Source of the DNA: Okeania sp. SIO3B5
GTDB lineage: Bacteria > Cyanobacteriota > Cyanobacteriia > Cyanobacteriales > Microcoleaceae
Direction of reading: 5' to 3'
DNA length: 38,545 bases
NCBI RefSeq assembly: GCF_010692555.1
Contig: NZ_JAAHHG010000047.1
Coordinates: 1-38,545, forward strand
In this document: positions 4,688-36,082 of the stretch, piece by piece
Layout: each line of letters begins with the position of its first letter
Position numbering within the stretch: the stretch's first letter is position 1
Notes under the pieces: model-generated
Seen by the model: only the letters and a program-made list of their open reading frames with translations
What the model was told of the DNA's origin: nothing
Database searches by the model: none
Translations under genes and position numbers: made by a program

Positions 4688-4905
4688 AGGATTTGCGGAA
4701 AAAGTCTGATGGTGATGATAGGTAACAGGGAACAGCTCCGAAAGGCAACAGTTTAGACTATCTGCTACGACCAAATTTTCGGCATTGTCAAGGGAAAAAT
4801 ATTAGTATTTTGAGACCAAAAGAGCCAAAAATCTTGCACTTTTTCAGAAGAAAAAGCCCTGGAAGCCTTTACAGGTATTGATTACAATTTTATTCAGCAA
4901 GCCCT
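4688..4905. mobile_element. Family A MITE at a stop codon
   Basis: Ends AGGATTTGCGGAAAAA and TTCAGCAAGCCCT, with AATT on both sides. Its right terminus supplies the last two bases of the TAG stop of the gene at 4904-5239. Confidence 0.88.
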
Positions 4906-5239
4906 AATTATTAGACTCCGTAATGGATATTGCACTTCTGGCATCTTCTATTCGATCGATGTGAGCTTTGAGTAAAGATAAATCTGTCGCGACAAATCTC
5001 TTGTTAGTTGTTAGATCGTAAGCTTCCCACTCTTGAGAAAAATCTACATCTTGCCAAATAAACCAATCTCGGTAGATTTCACCTTCATCAATATCACCAC
5101 ACAGAGCTAACCAATCATCTCCATCAAAATTGTCTACTGCTGATGCTACTAAGTCAAGCCACGCAATAGTAGTACAAGTATCTGTATCGATATCAACAGG
5201 AAAGGAGGCGGACTGGGAGAGGCAGATATTAGATGTCAT
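4904..5239 (-). CDS. Small acidic hypothetical protein
   Basis: A 111-residue acidic protein, rich in Asp and Trp (WLDLVAS, DWLALCGD, WFIWQDVDF, EWEAYDL). No signal peptide or membrane segment is visible and I do not recognise the family. The ATG is preceded by an AT-rich leader. The reading frame reads AAT-AAT-TAG at its end. The TSD of the family A MITE (AATT) plus the first bases of the element (AG) form the stop, and the sequence beyond the other TSD copy (AATTAGCC) shows that the original stop was also TAG there, so insertion left the protein unchanged. Codon use resembles the neighbours. It is likely a real gene because its frame is intact to a conserved stop. Confidence 0.6.
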   Translation of the reverse strand: MTSNICLSQSASFPVDIDTDTCTTIAWLDLVASAVDNFDGDDWLALCGDIDEGEIYRDWFIWQDVDFSQEWEAYDLTTNKRFVATDLSLLKAHIDRIEDARSAISITESNN

Positions 5240-6091: not shown

Positions 6092-6358
<267 letters not shown>

Positions 6359-6633: not shown

Positions 6634-7392
6634 ATGCTTAATATTAATAAGATGAAAACAAATATAGTAGCGATCGCTGCAGTAGCTCTAACTATTTGTA
6701 GCACTCCCCTAGCACTTGCGGAAAATTATACCAGAGAATTTGACGAACAAAAATATCTACGTCAAAACCCTGATGTTGCACAGTTAGTACGTCAAGGAAA
6801 ATATAAGTCTGGTTATGAACATTATGTCAGATATGGGCAATATGAAAATCGCCCCCCAGCTTTCAAAATATTTGATGAGCAGGAATATTTGCGACAGAAC
6901 CCTGACGTTAGATCTGCCATACGTCGTGGAGAATTTCAGTCTGCTTACGATCACTATCTCAAACATGGTCAATATGAAAACCGTAAAGGTGCTTCTCAAC
7001 CATCACAACCTGAATTTTATGATGATTATAATCAACCTCCTTTTGCTTACCAAAATTCAAGTTGTCAAAATATAAATCGTAATTTGTCTCAGGAGGCATT
7101 TTTCCGCACTGAAAGTCGAGTAATTCATATTTGTAGATATGAAAATACTAACAAATTAGTTTGGTTTGAGCGGAACAATAGAAGCAATTCTGGTTGGAAA
7201 ACTTTTCCAGTAGAAGTTGCCTATAATGGTTTTGTTAATCCTCGTATGGGCTATTTTGTTAATAACAATGAATTTATTCATAAACGAGGAAATCGAAGAG
7301 TTTACAGAGAACAAGTTCTAACTCAATGGAGACATAATTGTACCAAAACATCTTCTTATTCATCATCGAATCCTTTTTTCAAGTCTAACTAG
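6634..7392 (+). CDS. Secreted protein with two YLRQNPDV repeats
   Basis: A 252-residue exported protein of unknown function. I choose the ATG at 6634, which has GAGG nine bases upstream; a TTG at 6619 would only add five residues. The N-terminus is a signal peptide (basic start, hydrophobic IVAIAAVALTI, cleavage near ALA-EN). Two tandem ~38-residue repeats follow, each of the form F-D-E-Q-x-Y-L-R-Q-N-P-D-V ... H-Y-x-x-x-G-Q-Y-E-N-R. This repeat is known from many cyanobacterial cell-surface and secreted proteins. The C-terminal ~110 residues hold two Cys and many Asn and Arg, and I do not recognise them. The stop TAG spans the junction with the family A MITE; before insertion it was TAA. Confidence 0.75.
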   Translation: MLNINKMKTNIVAIAAVALTICSTPLALAENYTREFDEQKYLRQNPDVAQLVRQGKYKSGYEHYVRYGQYENRPPAFKIFDEQEYLRQNPDVRSAIRRGEFQSAYDHYLKHGQYENRKGASQPSQPEFYDDYNQPPFAYQNSSCQNINRNLSQEAFFRTESRVIHICRYENTNKLVWFERNNRSNSGWKTFPVEVAYNGFVNPRMGYFVNNNEFIHKRGNRRVYREQVLTQWRHNCTKTSSYSSSNPFFKSN

Positions 7393-7599
7393 GGTTTGCT
7401 GAAAAAGTCTGTTAGTGAAGGAAGGGAACAGGGAACAGGGAACAGTTTAAACTATCTGCTACGGTCAAATTTTCTGATAGTCAGGGTCAAAAATTTACCA
7501 TTTTGAGACAACAATAGCCAAAAACTAGGTACTTTTTCAGAATTGAAAAAGGCTAAAACCAATATCAGTCAATACTGTGAAATTTAATCAGCAAACCCT
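7391..7599. mobile_element. Family A MITE at a stop codon
   Basis: Starts AGGGTTTGCTGAAAAAGTC and ends TTTAATCAGCAAACCCT, with AACT on both sides. Its first two bases complete the TAG stop of the preceding gene. Confidence 0.92.
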
Positions 7600-9023: not shown

Positions 9024-9292
9024 AGGGCTTGCTGATTAATTCTAAAAGTATTTACAGATAAAAGTTTTAGCGTTTTAGAGCTGAAAAAAGTACCAACTTT
9101 TCGGTGGACAAAGCTCATGCATGCTAGTACTTTGGGATGATTATGGCAGAAAAATTGAGAGACAAAACTTAGCTCCTACCTCCTCTACATTCCCATTTAT
9201 CCTGTCTTCCCCTCCTGGGAGGGGTTAGGGGTGGGTTGTCTCCTGTCTCCTGTCTCCTACTCCAGCAAAAATACTTTCCATACGCAAACCCT
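9024..9292. mobile_element. Family A MITE
   Basis: Starts AGGGCTTGCTGATTAA and ends CATACGCAAACCCT, with AATT on both sides. It carries the G-rich block at 9217-9235. Confidence 0.9.
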
Positions 9293-12485: not shown

Positions 12486-12766
12486 AGGGCTTGCTGATTT
12501 AAAGATCGCGCGCATTGACTGATATTGGTTTTAGGCAATTTATGTCTGGAAAAAGTATGAACTTTTCAGCAAGTAATGGTTACAAAAGTGAGGATTTTCA
12601 CTGAAGCAAAAGCCGAAAAATCACTTTTACTATTATTTTGGCCACTGAATCTGTAATTCCCATTTATTCTACGTCTTAACTACTCCCTACTCCCTTTTTC
12701 CCCTCCTGGGAGAGGTTAGGAGTGGGTCCCTACAAAGAGCAAAAAGACTTTCCATATGCAAACCCT
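12486..12766. mobile_element. Family A MITE
   Basis: Starts AGGGCTTGCTGATTTAAA and ends CATATGCAAACCCT, with AATT on both sides. It holds a CCCTACT heptamer array and a weakened G-rich block. Confidence 0.9.
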
Positions 12767-13717: not shown

Positions 13718-13915
13718 GCAAGCATTCAGCCGTCAGCTATCAGCTAGCCTCCTAGGTCGGAACTGCGGACTTCAGCTATTAATTTTGGGGAAGGTAAAAA
13801 TAATTGAGAAATTGAGACAGAATAAAAGTTACTGTTAAAGTTCCCTTCCTAAATCTTAGAAGTAATGAATAATTAGGGTTTGCTGATAGCTGACTGCTAA
13901 TAGCTGAATGCTTAC
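13718..13915. mobile_element. Family B MITE in the transposase gene
   Basis: Ends GCAAGCATTCAGC / GCTGAATGCTTAC, 8-bp duplication GTTCTGTG on both sides. Its interior matches the copy at 14291 rather than the one at 13126. Confidence 0.95.
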
Positions 13916-16114: not shown

Positions 16115-16401
16115 AGGGTTTGCGCTCAAAAGTCTTTTTTAAGGAGTAGGGGAGCGGGTTATTGAGGACACACCAGAGGGGGAGACAGGGAGACGCGGAG
16201 ATAGGGTGTCACCGACACGCCGCGTCCGGTGTGTCTCCGTTTCCTCATAGGGGAGTAGGGGAGAATTTTTTTGCCCAACTATGCGCTCTTTAATGCGCTC
16301 CATGCATGACCATTAAGAGCTTAAAACCATGTACTTTTTCAATACCTAAAAAGGCACTTACCTTTATCTGGTAATTATTTGATATTTAATCAGCAAACCC
16401 T
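16115..16401. mobile_element. Family A MITE
   Basis: Starts AGGGTTTGCGCTCAAAAGTC, the same left end as the long element at 24271, and ends TTTAATCAGCAAACCCT. Flanks are ATCT and AAGT, so no duplication is visible. The interior contains a GC-rich palindrome (around 16190-16240). Confidence 0.82.
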
Positions 16402-20792: not shown

Positions 20793-21038
20793 AGGGTTTG
20801 CTGATTAATCATGAAAGCCTTGGCAGGTAAAGTTTATAGCATTTTTAGATACTAAGGGAGTATCAGCTTTTAGGTGGTAATGGTTCAATTAGGAGGGTAT
20901 TTTGGGCAAGATAGGGGAAGAAAATCACTTTTACGATTCTTCTGACTACCTCTTCTATAATTCTCATTCCTCCTGACTTCACCGATTCACCGATTCTGGC
21001 TCCTATCCCTACCACTCATACTTTAATCAGCAAACCCT
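20793..21038. mobile_element. Family A MITE
   Basis: Starts AGGGTTTGCTGATTAATC and ends TTTAATCAGCAAACCCT. Flanks AAGT and AGGT differ by one base. Confidence 0.88.
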
Positions 21039-24270: not shown

Positions 24271-25957
24271 AGGGTTTGCGCTCAAAAGTCTGAAAACAGT
24301 TGATTTGTTATTCAAAGAAAAGGTTGGATAATTTTTTGTGATCATCATTCATTTAAGTATAATTTTAAATTATTAAACACATCGCAAAAACAGTTTTTGG
24401 AGCAAAAAAGTACAAAAAAAGAGAAAAAGCCTCTTTTAAGAGGGAGGAAAGATTGATTACTAAAAAAGTAATTGCGATAGAACTCCGTTCCGCTACGCGA
24501 TCGCAGTTGTGGAAGTTTCCGAAAGTTTGGTCATTACTTTCTCCAAGTTAAATCCTCTTTTTGCTTGCCCGAATTTGCCCTCAATATGGTTCCGCAATCT
24601 TTCATCGCTCTTGAGCTTGTTTCTTCTTTTCTTTATCAATATTTTTTGGTGGTCAACGAACGGGAGGACCACTCATTCTAATACCTTTCTCTTTACAGAA
24701 TTTTCGGTTTTCTCTTGTCCTGTAAATCTTGTCTGCATGAACTGACTCTGGGTAATGACCTGTGTAATTTTTAAACTCTTCAACTGATCGCTTTTCAATC
24801 TCCTGATTCATTTTAGTTATCCCAACTTATTCGGTGTAAAAATACATATCCATCTATGCAACTTGCAGACAGTTTAGCACCAAATTCTGTATTTTTCCTG
24901 CTTTTCCTCTCACTATTGAACGTACATTAGGTTTATTTATACTTACTATTCTTGACTCTATTTGTTGTTTTTTGTTCTCCCACATATATTGTTGTTGACG
25001 ATATACTTCACTCACCACCAATAAAGTTCTATATTGTCTATTACTAAGACTTTCTAGACTCGCACCTTTCTTTATTAGTAGGTCTATAGTTTTTAAATTT
25101 TTACTAACATATTTCAGTTGTTTTTTGATGGCTTTCCTGATTTCCTTACAAGTCGGCCGTCTTTTTTTGGCTACCTTTAAATATTCTTTTCTTGCTGTTT
25201 GACGGTGAGTAATTGGTTTTTTATGCAACTGGTTTTTGATGGTTTTATAGAGAATATCTATAATTTTTTCAGTTTTAAATAAGAGCTTGATTTAATAGAT
25301 TTAAGTCCGTCGGATAGCTGATATCGGCAGGGGCGCAGGTGGCATCTATGATTAATTTACCTTGATGCAAGACCATTCTTGATTTCTTCTAATTTTGTGT
25401 TTTTTTTCCCTTTCATCTTCCTGATTTTCACTCTGAGTTTTCACCATCTCTGAATTAATTTCATTGATTAAATCTGCACAAGCATCTTTCTCTAAAGTGA
25501 ACTAACATTGAGGCATCAAATGGGGCTTGATTTTTATAGGATTCAAGGCCGATAAAATATTGTAAGTAAGGGTTTTCCTTGATTTGTTCTACTATTTCCC
25601 GATCGCTTATACCTAATTTCTCCTTAATAATTAACGCCCAAGGGCGCCATTCTAAAAGATCAGGCAGGTGCTCCCCTTTTCCCAGAGAATAAACTCGCAT
25701 ATTTATCTTCATATTTCTCCCAAGAAATTAAATTCACCATCACAACGAGAGCGATTGTCTGGGGATAATTGGCCATTGAATGGCAGTTCAAAATTTTCTG
25801 GTGTAGTGTCACCTTGGCCTACTTTTCTGTACATGGTTTGTGCAGTATAGATACCTGGTTTTTGATGTATTTTAGCTGAAAACTAAGTACTTTTTCAATA
25901 CCTAAAAAGGCTAAAACCAATATAAGTCAATGCTTTTAGATTTATTCAGCAAACCCT
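24271..25957 (-). mobile_element. Dead IS5-like element, probable parent of family A
   Basis: Ends AGGGTTTGCGCTCAAAAGTC and ATTCAGCAAACCCT, with AATT on both sides, the same termini and AANT duplication as the family A MITEs. The last ~90 bases (CTAAAAAGGCTAAAACCAAT onward) closely match the end of the MITE at 7391-7599. It contains a DUF772-type transposase pseudogene and lies inside a dead tnpB. Confidence 0.88.
24480..25834 (-). pseudogene. IS5-like transposase (DUF772 N-terminus), decayed
   Basis: From the ATG at 25834 the minus strand encodes MYRKVGQGDTTPENFELPF, then in other frames YEDKYASLFSGKRGAPA, then ALIIKEKLGISDREIVEQI with NPYLQYFIGL and PFDASMLVHFR (25461-25712). The central part is at 24854-25228 (THRQTARKEYLKVAKKRRP). 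The C-terminal part (HIEGKFGQAKRGFNLEKV, 24.5-24.6 kb) breaks at a small dispersed repeat inserted beside a HIP1 site (about 24476-24500). The order and motifs are those of a complete ~480-residue IS5-like transposase. At least four frame breaks make it inactive. Confidence 0.88.
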
Positions 25958-25961
25958 AATT

Positions 25962-26257
25962 AGGGCTTGCTGAAAAAGTCTTATGGGTGAAGGTAGGAGA
26001 CAGGAGACAACCCACCCCTCGCCCCTCCCCCTCCCAACCCACCCCTAGCCCCTCCCAGGAGGGGAGGGGAAGACAGGATAAATGGCTTGGGAGCGAGGAG
26101 GTAGGAGTAAGAATTTTCTCAAGATGGTTCTGCCCTACTCTTGACCAAAATCCTGAATTTTTGAACCATTACCATTGAAAACCTCACACTTTTTCCAGAT
26201 CTAAAATTGCTCAAACCAATATCAGTCAATAAGCGCGATATTTAATCAGCAAACCCT
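25962..26257. mobile_element. Family A MITE abutting its probable parent
   Basis: Starts AGGGCTTGCTGAAAAAGTC and ends TTTAATCAGCAAACCCT. AATT on its left is shared with the IS5-like element and AATT follows at 26258. It is an inverted near-copy of 1247-1514, with an extra C-rich stretch (26011-26056). Confidence 0.92.
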
Positions 26258-28875: not shown

Positions 28876-29250
28876 AGGGTTTGCTGATTAAATCTCAAAT
28901 AATTACCAGATAAAGGTTTTAGCCTTTTTGGGTCTGAAATACCTTGGTTTTCAGTTGTTCATGCTTAAAAATTTACCATTTTAGTGGGACTTAAACAAAA
29001 TAGAGCCAGAAAATAGGCTCAAATATAGACTAGCAAAGGCTTTTACGTCAAAAAGGTATAAATCCTGAATAAGCACGGGTTCTAGCCATTTTTAGGGCAT
29101 CGACGTAATTCCGTTGTCTAGAGTGGCTTTGACGCATTTTTTCGACCAGGAAATGTTTAAGTACCATTAGGCAAAAGTTGGGCAAAAAAAAATTACTTTC
29201 CTACTCCCCTACTCCCCTACTCCTTAAAAAAGACTTTTTCCGCAAACCCT
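28876..29250. mobile_element. Family A MITE (long copy)
   Basis: Starts AGGGTTTGCTGATTAAATC and ends TTTTTCCGCAAACCCT, with AAGT on both sides. At 375 bp it is the longest short-form copy. Confidence 0.88.
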
Positions 29251-30092: not shown

Positions 30093-30369
30093 AGGGTTTG
30101 CTGAATAAATATAAAAGCATTGACATATAAAGGATTTAACCTTTTTTGGACCTTTAAAAAGTGTCTGATTTTCAGCTCTTCATGCTCAAAAAGGAGCGTA
30201 TTTTAGGAGCATAGTTGGGCAGAATAATCTTGGGACAAAACGCCCGCTCCTACCTCCTCGCTCCCGAACCATTTCTCCAGTATAGCTGTCTTCCCCTCCT
30301 GGGATGGGTTAGGGGTGGGTTGTCTCCTGTCTCCTACCCCTACGAAAAAAGACTTTTTCAGCAAACCCT
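30093..30369. mobile_element. Family A MITE
   Basis: Starts AGGGTTTGCTGAATAAAT and ends TTTTTCAGCAAACCCT, with AATT on both sides. It carries the G-rich block at 30301-30319. Confidence 0.92.
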
Positions 30370-33564: not shown

Positions 33565-35021
33565 TTGACTACTCCCCTGACTGAAGCCAAGGGGATTCTA
33601 AGTTGAGACTACGCAACACCGATAAATCCTTGTTGCTTCGTTTGTTCTTAGCTGACCAAAGATAAACTCTTTGGGGACAAGTCAAAGCGCCCCTACACAG
33701 TCGGCTTAAGTTTAATCCTAGCTTTCTGCTTACTTTTGTGATAATATTTGCAGCCCCATTACAGTCTGCATTCACAAAACAATTATTACCACTCCTATAC
33801 AAACCACGCTTTATTCTTTTTCCTGATGGTTTCCAATCATTGGGTTTTTCACCATAATTAGGCAGATAGTCACCATCTAAAAACGAAGCAATACTTGTAT
33901 AACTTTCTTCTGTTTCTATAAATATTATTCCATATTCAGAACACAATTGAGCTATTCTTTCTTTAAGTCTAGCTGTCGGAATTGGTACAAATTCTGAATT
34001 CTTTTTATGACCTAATTTTATTTCATTTTTCTGACCTTTATTCCAACCAAAAATAATTGTACCAAGCTCATGTTCTAAACAATGATTAATTACTATTCTG
34101 GCTGCTTTATTGATACCATCACGGATTTGGCGGTTACGTTTTTCAGTAATAGCAGCTAGTTTATTTGACCAAAATCCCAAAGGCTTATTTTCTTTGATAG
34201 TTGATATCTGTTTGTTGTACCAACGATTCATTGATTTGAGATGTTTACCATCTACAATTAAGCTCGTACCGACATTAGATACACAAGTCAACCAATTATT
34301 GACACCATGGTCAATTCCTAATACATTTTCTTGATTTAATTGAGGTTTAACTACTTCTTTTTCATAGACAAATTCATAGTAAAAATATCTATTTCTTGGT
34401 AGAATTTTCAATTCTTTAAGAGCATTAAATTCGAGATTACTCGGCATAGGAATATAAAAGCAATCTAAACCAAACCAGCGTTTACAGGTATTACCTAGCG
34501 GTACTCTAATTTGATTACCTTTGAGCTTTAATGCTTGAGCCGGATAACTAACTGTAGCTAATCCTCCTTTTCCTTTTTTTCTATAGTTAGGTATTCTAGG
34601 TCTGTCTGCAATTTTACCTTCAGTATAGGCTTTAATTAGACTATAATAAGACCTAAATGATTCAGCTACAGTACTCAATACTTGTTGTGCTGCTTGAGAA
34701 TGTAAAACTTTATAGTGGTTGTTGTTTTTGTAGACCTTTTCTAAGTCAAACTTACCAATACCTTTTTGAGACTTAAAATATAATTGCCGACCATAATATA
34801 TTCCCATGTTAGTTAGCTTGTGAGACTGTTCACATAAGAATGTTAAAGTTGCAATTAATTCAGGATTTTTACCTACTAAAACTTGTTGACAACAGTACAT
34901 TTCAAAAAGGCGTTGGAAAACTTATTGTCCATAACAATAGCACAGGACAACTCAAGTTGTCTAGTCTAAACGACTCCCTCGTTTTCATTAAAACACGGGG
35001 GCTTTGAGCGGAAGCTATCTG
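33565..35021 (-). mobile_element. Intact IS1341-type (tnpB-only) IS200/IS605 element
   Basis: The left end follows TTTAC (reverse complement at 35022-35026) and holds a hairpin of AGCCCCCGTGTTTTAAT with AAAACGAGGG. The right end has a hairpin CCCCTTGGC...AGGGG followed by AGTAGTCAA. It encodes tnpB but no tnpA. A tnpB-less relative lies at 1-221. Confidence 0.78.
33569..34900 (-). CDS. tnpB: TnpB-family RNA-guided nuclease, ribbon-less subgroup
   Basis: A 443-residue TnpB/IS605-OrfB protein with an intact frame. The RuvC catalytic residues are visible: Asp197 in LGIDHG, Glu329 in IETEES and Asp379 in VNADCNG. In place of the usual zinc ribbon (two CxxC pairs) between RuvC-II and RuvC-III there is a segment SYTSIASFLDGDYLP ... 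SGKRIKRGLYRS with a single Cys, as in a subgroup common in cyanobacteria. TnpB proteins cut DNA guided by RNA made from the element's right end next to a transposon-adjacent motif, here possibly TTTAC. The stop codon lies only a few bases from the right end, so guide RNA and gene would overlap. Activity is inferred. Confidence 0.88.
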   Translation of the reverse strand: MYCCQQVLVGKNPELIATLTFLCEQSHKLTNMGIYYGRQLYFKSQKGIGKFDLEKVYKNNNHYKVLHSQAAQQVLSTVAESFRSYYSLIKAYTEGKIADRPRIPNYRKKGKGGLATVSYPAQALKLKGNQIRVPLGNTCKRWFGLDCFYIPMPSNLEFNALKELKILPRNRYFYYEFVYEKEVVKPQLNQENVLGIDHGVNNWLTCVSNVGTSLIVDGKHLKSMNRWYNKQISTIKENKPLGFWSNKLAAITEKRNRQIRDGINKAARIVINHCLEHELGTIIFGWNKGQKNEIKLGHKKNSEFVPIPTARLKERIAQLCSEYGIIFIETEESYTSIASFLDGDYLPNYGEKPNDWKPSGKRIKRGLYRSGNNCFVNADCNGAANIITKVSRKLGLNLSRLCRGALTCPQRVYLWSAKNKRSNKDLSVLRSLNLESPWLQSGE

Positions 35022-35149: not shown

Positions 35150-35965
35150 ATGCAAACAACAATTCCTACTCTTCTAGCTCTTGACTTTGATGGCGTTTTA
35201 TGCAATGGACTGGTTGAATATTTTCAAACGGCCTGGCGCACCTACTGTCAAATTTGGCAACCATTAGAACAAATACCAAATAATGATTTGGCAGAACAGT
35301 TTTATCGATTACGTCCGGTAATTGAAATTGGCTGGGAAATGCCTGTTTTGATTCGGGCTTTAATATTAGGTATTGAAGAAGAAAAAATTTTACGGGAATG
35401 GCAAGCGATCGCTACAAAGATTGTGACTGAGGAGAATAAAAATCCAGGGGAAATTGGTAGTTGTCTAGATAATACTAGAGATGAATGGATAGGGAAAGAT
35501 TTAGAAGGATGGTTGTCTTTGCATGAGTTTTATCCAGGGGTAGTAGAAAAGTTAAAGCAGTTGATAGTGTCAGAAGTTAAACCAGTTATTGTGACAACTA
35601 AAGAGGGGCGGTTTGTACGATCGCTCCTGCAAAAACAAGGTGTGAATTTACCAGAAACGGATATTATTGGCAAAGAATGTAAGCGTCCTAAATATGAAAC
35701 TCTGAGAATGTTATTAGCAGCATCAGGAGCAGGAACAATTATTTGGTTTGTTGAAGATAGATTGAAAACTTTACTATCTGTGCAAAAACAATCGGACTTA
35801 AAAGAAGTAGAATTATTTTTAGCAGATTGGGGTTACAATACTCAGAAAGAACGAGATTCTGTAACTCAATATCCTCCTATTAATTTATTATCTTCTACTC
35901 AGTTTTGCCAGGATTTTTCCCTATGGAAAGAAGGAAGAAGGAAGAGGGAAGAAGGAAGAAGTTAA
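35150..35965 (+). CDS. HAD-family hydrolase
   Basis: A 271-residue haloacid-dehalogenase-superfamily phosphatase-like protein. Motif I is LALDFDGVLCNG with nucleophile Asp12 and general acid Asp14. Motif II Thr is in VIVTTKEGRF, the motif III Lys is in GKECKRPKYE, and motif IV is WFVEDRL. The helical insertion between motifs I and II (about residues 20-125) is a C1-type cap. The substrate is unknown. The last ~14 residues (KEGRRKREEGRS) come from a purine-rich AGGAAGA tandem repeat that starts just before the expected stop. A decayed duplicate of the gene's 3' end follows at about 36119-36210. Confidence 0.85.
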   Translation: MQTTIPTLLALDFDGVLCNGLVEYFQTAWRTYCQIWQPLEQIPNNDLAEQFYRLRPVIEIGWEMPVLIRALILGIEEEKILREWQAIATKIVTEENKNPGEIGSCLDNTRDEWIGKDLEGWLSLHEFYPGVVEKLKQLIVSEVKPVIVTTKEGRFVRSLLQKQGVNLPETDIIGKECKRPKYETLRMLLAASGAGTIIWFVEDRLKTLLSVQKQSDLKEVELFLADWGYNTQKERDSVTQYPPINLLSSTQFCQDFSLWKEGRRKREEGRS

Positions 35966-36082
35966 GAAGGAAGGAAAAGGAAAAAAGTTTGAGGAAAGAA
36001 GGAAGAAGGAAGAAGGAAGAGGGAAGAGGGAAGAAGGAAGAAATTAAGAAGGAAGAAATTAAGAAGGAAGGAAGAGGAAGAC
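35926..36082. repeat. Purine-rich tandem repeat (GGAAGAA)
   Basis: Over 150 bases of GGAAGAA/GGAAGAG units with an all-purine strand, starting inside the HAD gene. Possible triplex-forming tract. Confidence 0.85.

Follow-up and report, generated by a model that had tools for sequence, protein, structure and literature searches.

A large family of MITEs in Okeania shares its ends and target rule with a decayed IS5-family insertion sequence

The genome of Okeania sp. SIO3B5 carries many hundreds of short elements that are, with a probability of about 0.9, MITEs of an Okeania insertion sequence (IS) of the IS5_1 type, with their transposase supplied in trans by an intact sibling of the copy described here. 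We observed shared ends, a common target rule, high abundance, filled and empty sites in related genomes and, in other cyanobacteria, an association of the same ends with IS5_1 transposases. The mover itself would be an IS5_1-family transposase, judging from these sequence features, and its intact source has presumably decayed or been lost, or is absent from the assembly. Our starting point was a stretch of 38,545 nucleotides (the window; 36% GC) on contig C412 of this cyanobacterium's 11.06-Mb assembly of 789 contigs. The window was aligned to the syntenic contigs of four sister Okeania genomes (G001-G004). Its features are as follows.

24271-25957, transposase on the minus strand: decayed IS5-family insertion sequence of 1687 bp, with domain pieces, ends and AATT/AATT duplication
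24271-24291: opposite terminal 21 bp of this element, AGGGTTTGCGCTC variant; same bases in the elements at 16115 and 6092
25874-25957: transposase-upstream terminal ~84 bp, a module common to most short elements (matched by 57/63)
268-514: MITE, duplication AATT; empty in G002 and G003, where the target reads GATT
1247-1514: MITE, duplication AAAT; abuts the element at 1519
1519-1752: MITE, duplication AAAT; the pair 1247-1752 is missing from all four sister genomes
4688-4905: MITE, duplication AATT; site empty in four sister genomes; at the end of ORF 4904-5239
6092-6358: MITE, low end truncated, no duplication
7391-7599: MITE, duplication AACT; empty in G003 and G004
9024-9292: MITE, duplication AATT; empty in G001
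12486-12766: MITE, duplication AATT; empty in four sister genomes
16115-16401: MITE, flanks ATCT/AAGT, perfect duplication absent
20793-21038: MITE, flanks AAGT/AGGT, 3/4 match
25962-26257: MITE, abuts the long element; the AATT between them is common to both
28876-29250: MITE, duplication AAGT
30093-30369: MITE, duplication AATT

A sequence-only reading of the window had described a 1687-bp IS5-like element flanked by AATT and 13 short elements with the same termini. We checked these 14 elements base by base, and the description of the long element was borne out. All 13 short elements are present as well, 12 of them two-ended and the one at 6092 truncated as claimed. The long element and the 12 have in common the ends AGGGYTTGC...GCAARCCCT, with 0-2 mismatches; the element at 6092 keeps one end. 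The family ends are AGGGYTTGCTGA. The long element starts with AGGGTTTGCGCTC, finishes with TCAGCAAACCCT and has AATT at each flank; its left end is a GCGCTC variant that is also present in the G004 copy. With at most two mismatches, AGGGTTTGCTGA occurs 26 times in the window versus 3.31 expected, and AGGGTTTGCGCTC three times versus 0.37 expected. The short elements measure 209-375 bp, lack a transposase gene and have inverted terminal repeats, as MITEs do. The window gave no Rfam match at the gathering threshold. One perfect end escaped the sequence-only reading: a solitary, partnerless AATTAGGGTTTGCTGA at 13875-13886, a truncated element bordering paired 169-bp repeats (13720 and 14293).

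The long element is a decayed IS5-family copy, of the group modelled by NCBI as transpos_IS5_1. Successive pieces of its transposase match PF05598 (DUF772; 4.4e-14) and then PF13586 (2.3e-8 and 8.4e-11), the DUF772-to-DDE domain order of the IS5 group, and like its relatives it has terminal inverted repeats and a short target duplication. The NCBI model itself, NF033578, matches piecewise: four pieces reach 29-79 bits each, below the family cut-off of 275 bits, as in a decayed relative. The window copy is broken, because compared with a relative that has an open 497-aa frame its pieces are spread over three frames with several stops. The motifs IIDAT, HADKIYR and IEGKFGQAK, putative sites of the catalytic D, D and E residues, are still legible and have counterparts in that relative (L038). 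L038 has the same ends and scores 474 bits against NF033578.

We wondered how much of the long element the short ones retain. Its right end is matched by 10 of the 13 short elements in the window over 59-109 bp at 73-84% identity, and its first 21 bp recur exactly in two (16115 and 6092); the likeness is confined to the ends. The sequence-only reading had credited 16115 with the first 20 bases (21 are identical) and 7391-7599 with the last ~90 (the last 85 bp are 83.5% identical), and both statements hold. We then compared 63 short elements, each at most 700 bp long and with a perfect ANNT repeat; they came from the window and from 400 kb each of this genome and G004. The ~84-bp transposase-upstream module was found in 57, and the interior of the long element in 0/63. 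The subterminal resemblance that had been proposed is thus real on one side; on the other, only the outermost ~12-21 bp are alike. The module of the 57 oriented MITEs is 72% like that of the window element (shuffled, 51%), 66% like G004, 62% like Trichodesmium and 60% like G003; eight elements of seven other genera gave 47-53%, near their shuffled values (46-50%). The window element was the most similar of 12 IS ends compared, but it is favoured by the design: it served to orient the MITEs, and the six of 63 without the module were dropped. At the second end, once the outer ~12 bp are passed, the MITEs resemble the window IS no more than shuffled sequence does (46.4% versus 44.5%), and the highest value there came from an unrelated genus, Baaleninema (56.0% versus 49.3% shuffled). 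On contig C401 lies a ~480-bp IS copy in which the first ~268 and last ~221 bases are joined, with flanks AAAT and AATT. This internally deleted copy looks like an intermediate of the kind of deletion that gives rise to MITEs.

The ends also accompany the transposase outside Okeania. GTDB genomes were searched with an alignment covering the middle part of the transposase, and the best 80 of 368 relatives were kept; for each locus the best end pair was chosen, in the same way for the controls. Among these best 80, 64 had enough flank to be scanned and 55 of the 64 had both ends. A perfect 4-bp repeat bounded 37 of the 55, compared with 0-3 at five false offsets. All 37 duplications were ANNT, and 36 lay inside T..A. 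At two further loci (L166 and L213) the duplication looked like one of 5 bp, and the flanks of the other 16 match in part. A 4-bp ANNT duplication is thus common to the partner IS relatives and the MITEs. The target is ANNT within TANNTA; AANT, which the sequence-only reading had taken for the rule, is its most frequent subset. IS5 itself differs, with a YTAR (CTAG-type) target.

Taken together, these results suggest how the short elements would be moved. The MITEs would keep the terminal signals of the IS, that is, both outer ~12 bp and the ~84-bp transposase-upstream side; the transposase of an intact sibling copy would act on them in trans; insertion at palindromic TANNTA would duplicate ANNT; and the intact source would since have decayed, been lost or gone missing from the assembly. 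A sibling must be invoked because the window copy is broken. The earlier proposal that the DUF772-type transposase mobilised the short elements therefore stands for the family, whose link with the ends held at 55 of 64 loci (among the best 80 of 368), but not for this copy.

The source itself was not seen. The search for an intact copy ended in no transposase over the NF033578 cut-off in any of five Okeania assemblies: the best, in G003, reached 261.7 of 275 bits and has 12 stops, and the broken window copy is the sole DUF772 match in this genome. This does not fit the simplest story, since the insertions postdate the splits between the genomes, yet an over-cut-off transposase is absent from all five assemblies. 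The likeliest explanations are a recent death or loss of the intact source and its omission from the assemblies: short-read assembly collapses identical copies of 1.7 kb, and small contigs are often left out. The starts of L020 and L021 (contigs C130 and C87) are overlapping reverse complements around one MITE end, where the assembly is split.

The same absence can be read differently. The Okeania MITEs may be an orphan swarm whose resident transposases are all dead, the enzyme being supplied transiently from outside or from a distant relative. We consider this unlikely; were it true, between a few hundred and roughly a thousand copies in each genome would have gone on inserting after the species split.

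A further alternative is that an intact transposase of a different family moves the MITEs by the same ends, with the IS5 element as a fellow passenger. The lack of an over-cut-off IS5_1 transposase in the five Okeania assemblies, although MITEs inserted after these genomes split, speaks for it; but the ends accompany the IS5_1 transposase itself in the 55 two-ended relatives (best 80 of 368). A scan for long two-ended elements (600-4000 bp), covering 733 kb here and 400 kb in each of G001 and G004, gave three: the G004 IS5 copy, a G004 element with an IS605 OrfB-like frame and a chance pairing around dnaK. The last, a 2423-bp 'element' (L267), was rejected as two mismatched ends paired by chance. 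An intact different transposase with these ends, the finding that would have told against the original proposal, was not seen in the 733-kb sample (6.6% of the genome). The sole long stop-free frame from the NF033578 search of the five Okeania assemblies (G003 C146; 555 aa, 26 bits) lies at a locus from which such ends are absent; loci L096, L098 and L101 of the same search lack such ends. We give this alternative little chance. The G004 element (L128:9924-11747) has 1824 bp, these ends, AATT repeats and, by eye, an OrfB/TnpB-like frame; it is perhaps an IS605-type insertion into a MITE.

MITE mobility was apparent from comparison of the window with the sister genomes. At six of 12 sites (268, the pair 1247-1752, 4688, 7391, 9024 and 12486) at least one sister has the uninterrupted target; the other six have no alignable counterpart, and the immediate flanks of the long element could not be aligned in G001 and G004. 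At 4688, 7391, 9024 and 12486 the single target is identical to the duplication in all four bases; it is off by one base at 268 and 1247, and at 1247 the G001 alignment is also gapped. Short alignments at 9024 in G004 and G003 (63 and 53 bp) lay off the syntenic place and were rejected as empty sites. Because three sites are empty in all four sister genomes, we read the empty sites as insertions here and not as precise losses in the sisters. In the reciprocal test on 11 sister-contig elements there was one empty counterpart (a G004 MITE missing from G001, with flanks 97.5% identical) and none for the remaining ten. The orthologous stretch holds ten elements here (including the long one), three in G004 and two in G001, and the shorter G003 and G002 stretches hold none. 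Thus, much of the local swarm is younger than the parting of these genomes.

The duplications fall in one register. The long element and ten of the 13 short ones (268, 1247, 1519, 4688, 7391, 9024, 12486, 25962, 28876 and 30093) lie between perfect 4-bp repeats, so that the earlier 'almost all' was slightly generous: 16115 (ATCT/AAGT), 20793 (AAGT/AGGT) and the truncated 6092 (TATT/AATT) lack one. When ends with at most one mismatch each were paired at a spacing of 100-3000 bp in the window, the true offset yielded ten pairs with a 4/4 repeat (nine short elements and the long one), compared with 0-1 for seven false offsets; when two mismatches were allowed, the numbers were 13 (two of them chance pairs) and 1-5. 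These registers and the empty sites bear on the idea that the short elements are immobile, being old dispersed repeats or regulatory palindromes spread through duplication or recombination. Strong divergence between copies and the regular tandem arrangement of some (C297) would suit it, but empty counterparts refute it at six sites, and the overwhelming predominance of one register among the 4-bp repeats makes it very improbable elsewhere.

The family is abundant. TANNTAGGGYTTGC occurs exactly 1902 times genome-wide, versus once for its reversed control. Within a 733-kb sample (6.6% of the genome), drawn from contigs already known from prior searches to bear ends, we counted 63 short elements with perfect ANNT repeats, compared with 0-3 at five false offsets; their median length is 244 bp. 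In the first 400 kb, dropping the ANNT requirement gave counts of 31-35 at the true offset and 5-7 at one false offset, 7. Short ends and a window of 36% GC could prompt the thought that the shared ends are a coincidence of AT-rich, low-complexity sequence, but the reversed control and the low false offsets refute this and leave it practically no chance. We estimate 760-950 complete short copies (~950 by linear scaling; ~760 by exact ends, 158 in the sample of 1902 in total), or about 2% (1.8-2.3%) of the 11-Mb sequence; the window has a higher density than the sample, its 38.5 kb containing ten perfect short elements. The copies have diverged: in the first 400-kb sample, 33/35 have a neighbour and the median best match is 83%. 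Exact ends number 481-849 in the four other Okeania genomes; in the genus to which a Trichodesmium MAG (G025) belongs, the seven listed genomes have 58-486. Across 98 genomes, nine have at least 200 ends, and none of the nine has a stop-free transposase frame of at least 450 aa; the 11 with such a frame carry 5-35 ends, a contrast that was read off tables and proves little.

Elements also abut one another. An element starts with A and ends with T, so every tandem junction re-creates TANNTA. There are 61 exact element-element junctions here, 10 in G001, 9 in G004, 7 in G003 and 2 in G002. From the sampled target preference and 951 elements, we expected between 25, with all sites counted, and 36, with only those outside ORFs counted, here, an excess of 1.7-2.4-fold; the first 400-kb samples had 4 versus 0.9-1.4 (G000) and 3 versus 0.4-0.6 (G004). 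A preference for self-insertion is not claimed, since local duplication and clustering may explain the excess. On G000 C297, three junctions (8909, 9387 and 9865) are spaced exactly 478 bp apart, which suggests local tandem duplication and not repeated insertion.

Two patterns relative to genes were rejected. Inside ORFs of at least 100 aa lay 0/46 elements here and 0/20 in G004, where even target use predicts 12.2/35 and 7.3/20; this is not taken as a sign of gene avoidance, because an insertion breaks the frame that it enters and is hence invisible inside an ORF. In 2/46 cases here and 2/20 in G004, an ORF of at least 100 aa ends in a TAG made by the element, and three more element boundaries, two of them of one element, sit a few bases past a stop. 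At MITE 4688, ORF 4904-5239 has 111 aa and a TAG stop, the same as in its four orthologues. Insertion at stop codons was dropped as a pattern: of the two window cases, the orthologues' stop is kept at 4688 only.

The window holds other repeats. A second dispersed family starts with TAAGCATTCAG followed by variable short repeats (13127, 14292, 14694, 16587, 18902 and 29381); a third, TTACCGAAAAATT..GGTTTAAAGCCTCC.., has five ~50-bp copies (4318, 16768, 29802, 36241 and 36747), three of them alike over 97 bp. A purine-rich repeat tract, AAGAAGGAAG, lies at 35928-36073, and a 443-aa ORF of the IS605 OrfB/TnpB kind at 33569-34900.

Cyanobacterial IS5 members of NF033578 (transpos_IS5_1) have the same DUF772 and DDE_Tnp_1_2 domains, lengths mostly of 1.65-1.75 kb, AGGGYTTGCTGAAAAA-like ends and 4-bp ANNT duplications; the window copy differs in being broken and in its GCGCTC left end. 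IS-derived MITEs with a partner are already known in cyanobacteria, and those of Okeania are large in scale and ordinary in kind. A 187-bp MITE of Microcystis PCC 7806 with ISL3-type ends is reported in identical copies, 31 in one strain and 33 in another (PMC11448079); it too is short, lacks a transposase and matches a resident IS family in its ends and in the length of its duplication, whereas the Okeania copies number many hundreds, are diverged, and have an IS5 partner of which no intact copy was found in the five Okeania assemblies. Anabaena sp. 90 likewise has many MITEs: 147 complete or partial ones are reported, mostly intergenic (132/147), termed type II for inverted repeats unlike those of resident ISs (PMC3542288), whereas the partner family is identified in Okeania. 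The highest prokaryotic number given in section 3.2 of a 2024 review is 711 copies, for ERIC of Photorhabdus luminescens (PMC10969869), a single short element for which that section names no partner; with an estimated 760-950 complete copies, Okeania is level with or above this number, a likeness of number alone, the ends not having been compared. We found no paper on MITEs in Okeania, which is weak evidence of novelty since subscription literature was thinly covered; judged by titles and abstract openings, none of the papers found on Okeania transposases and Trichodesmium MITEs concerns these elements.

A named IS5 group with a clear target rule can now be linked to a very large family of bacterial MITEs. 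Part of the repeat DNA of Okeania and Trichodesmium may be explained by these MITEs, and the filled and empty sites in sister genomes offer a system for asking how MITE bursts start, and how they end once the autonomous partner dies.
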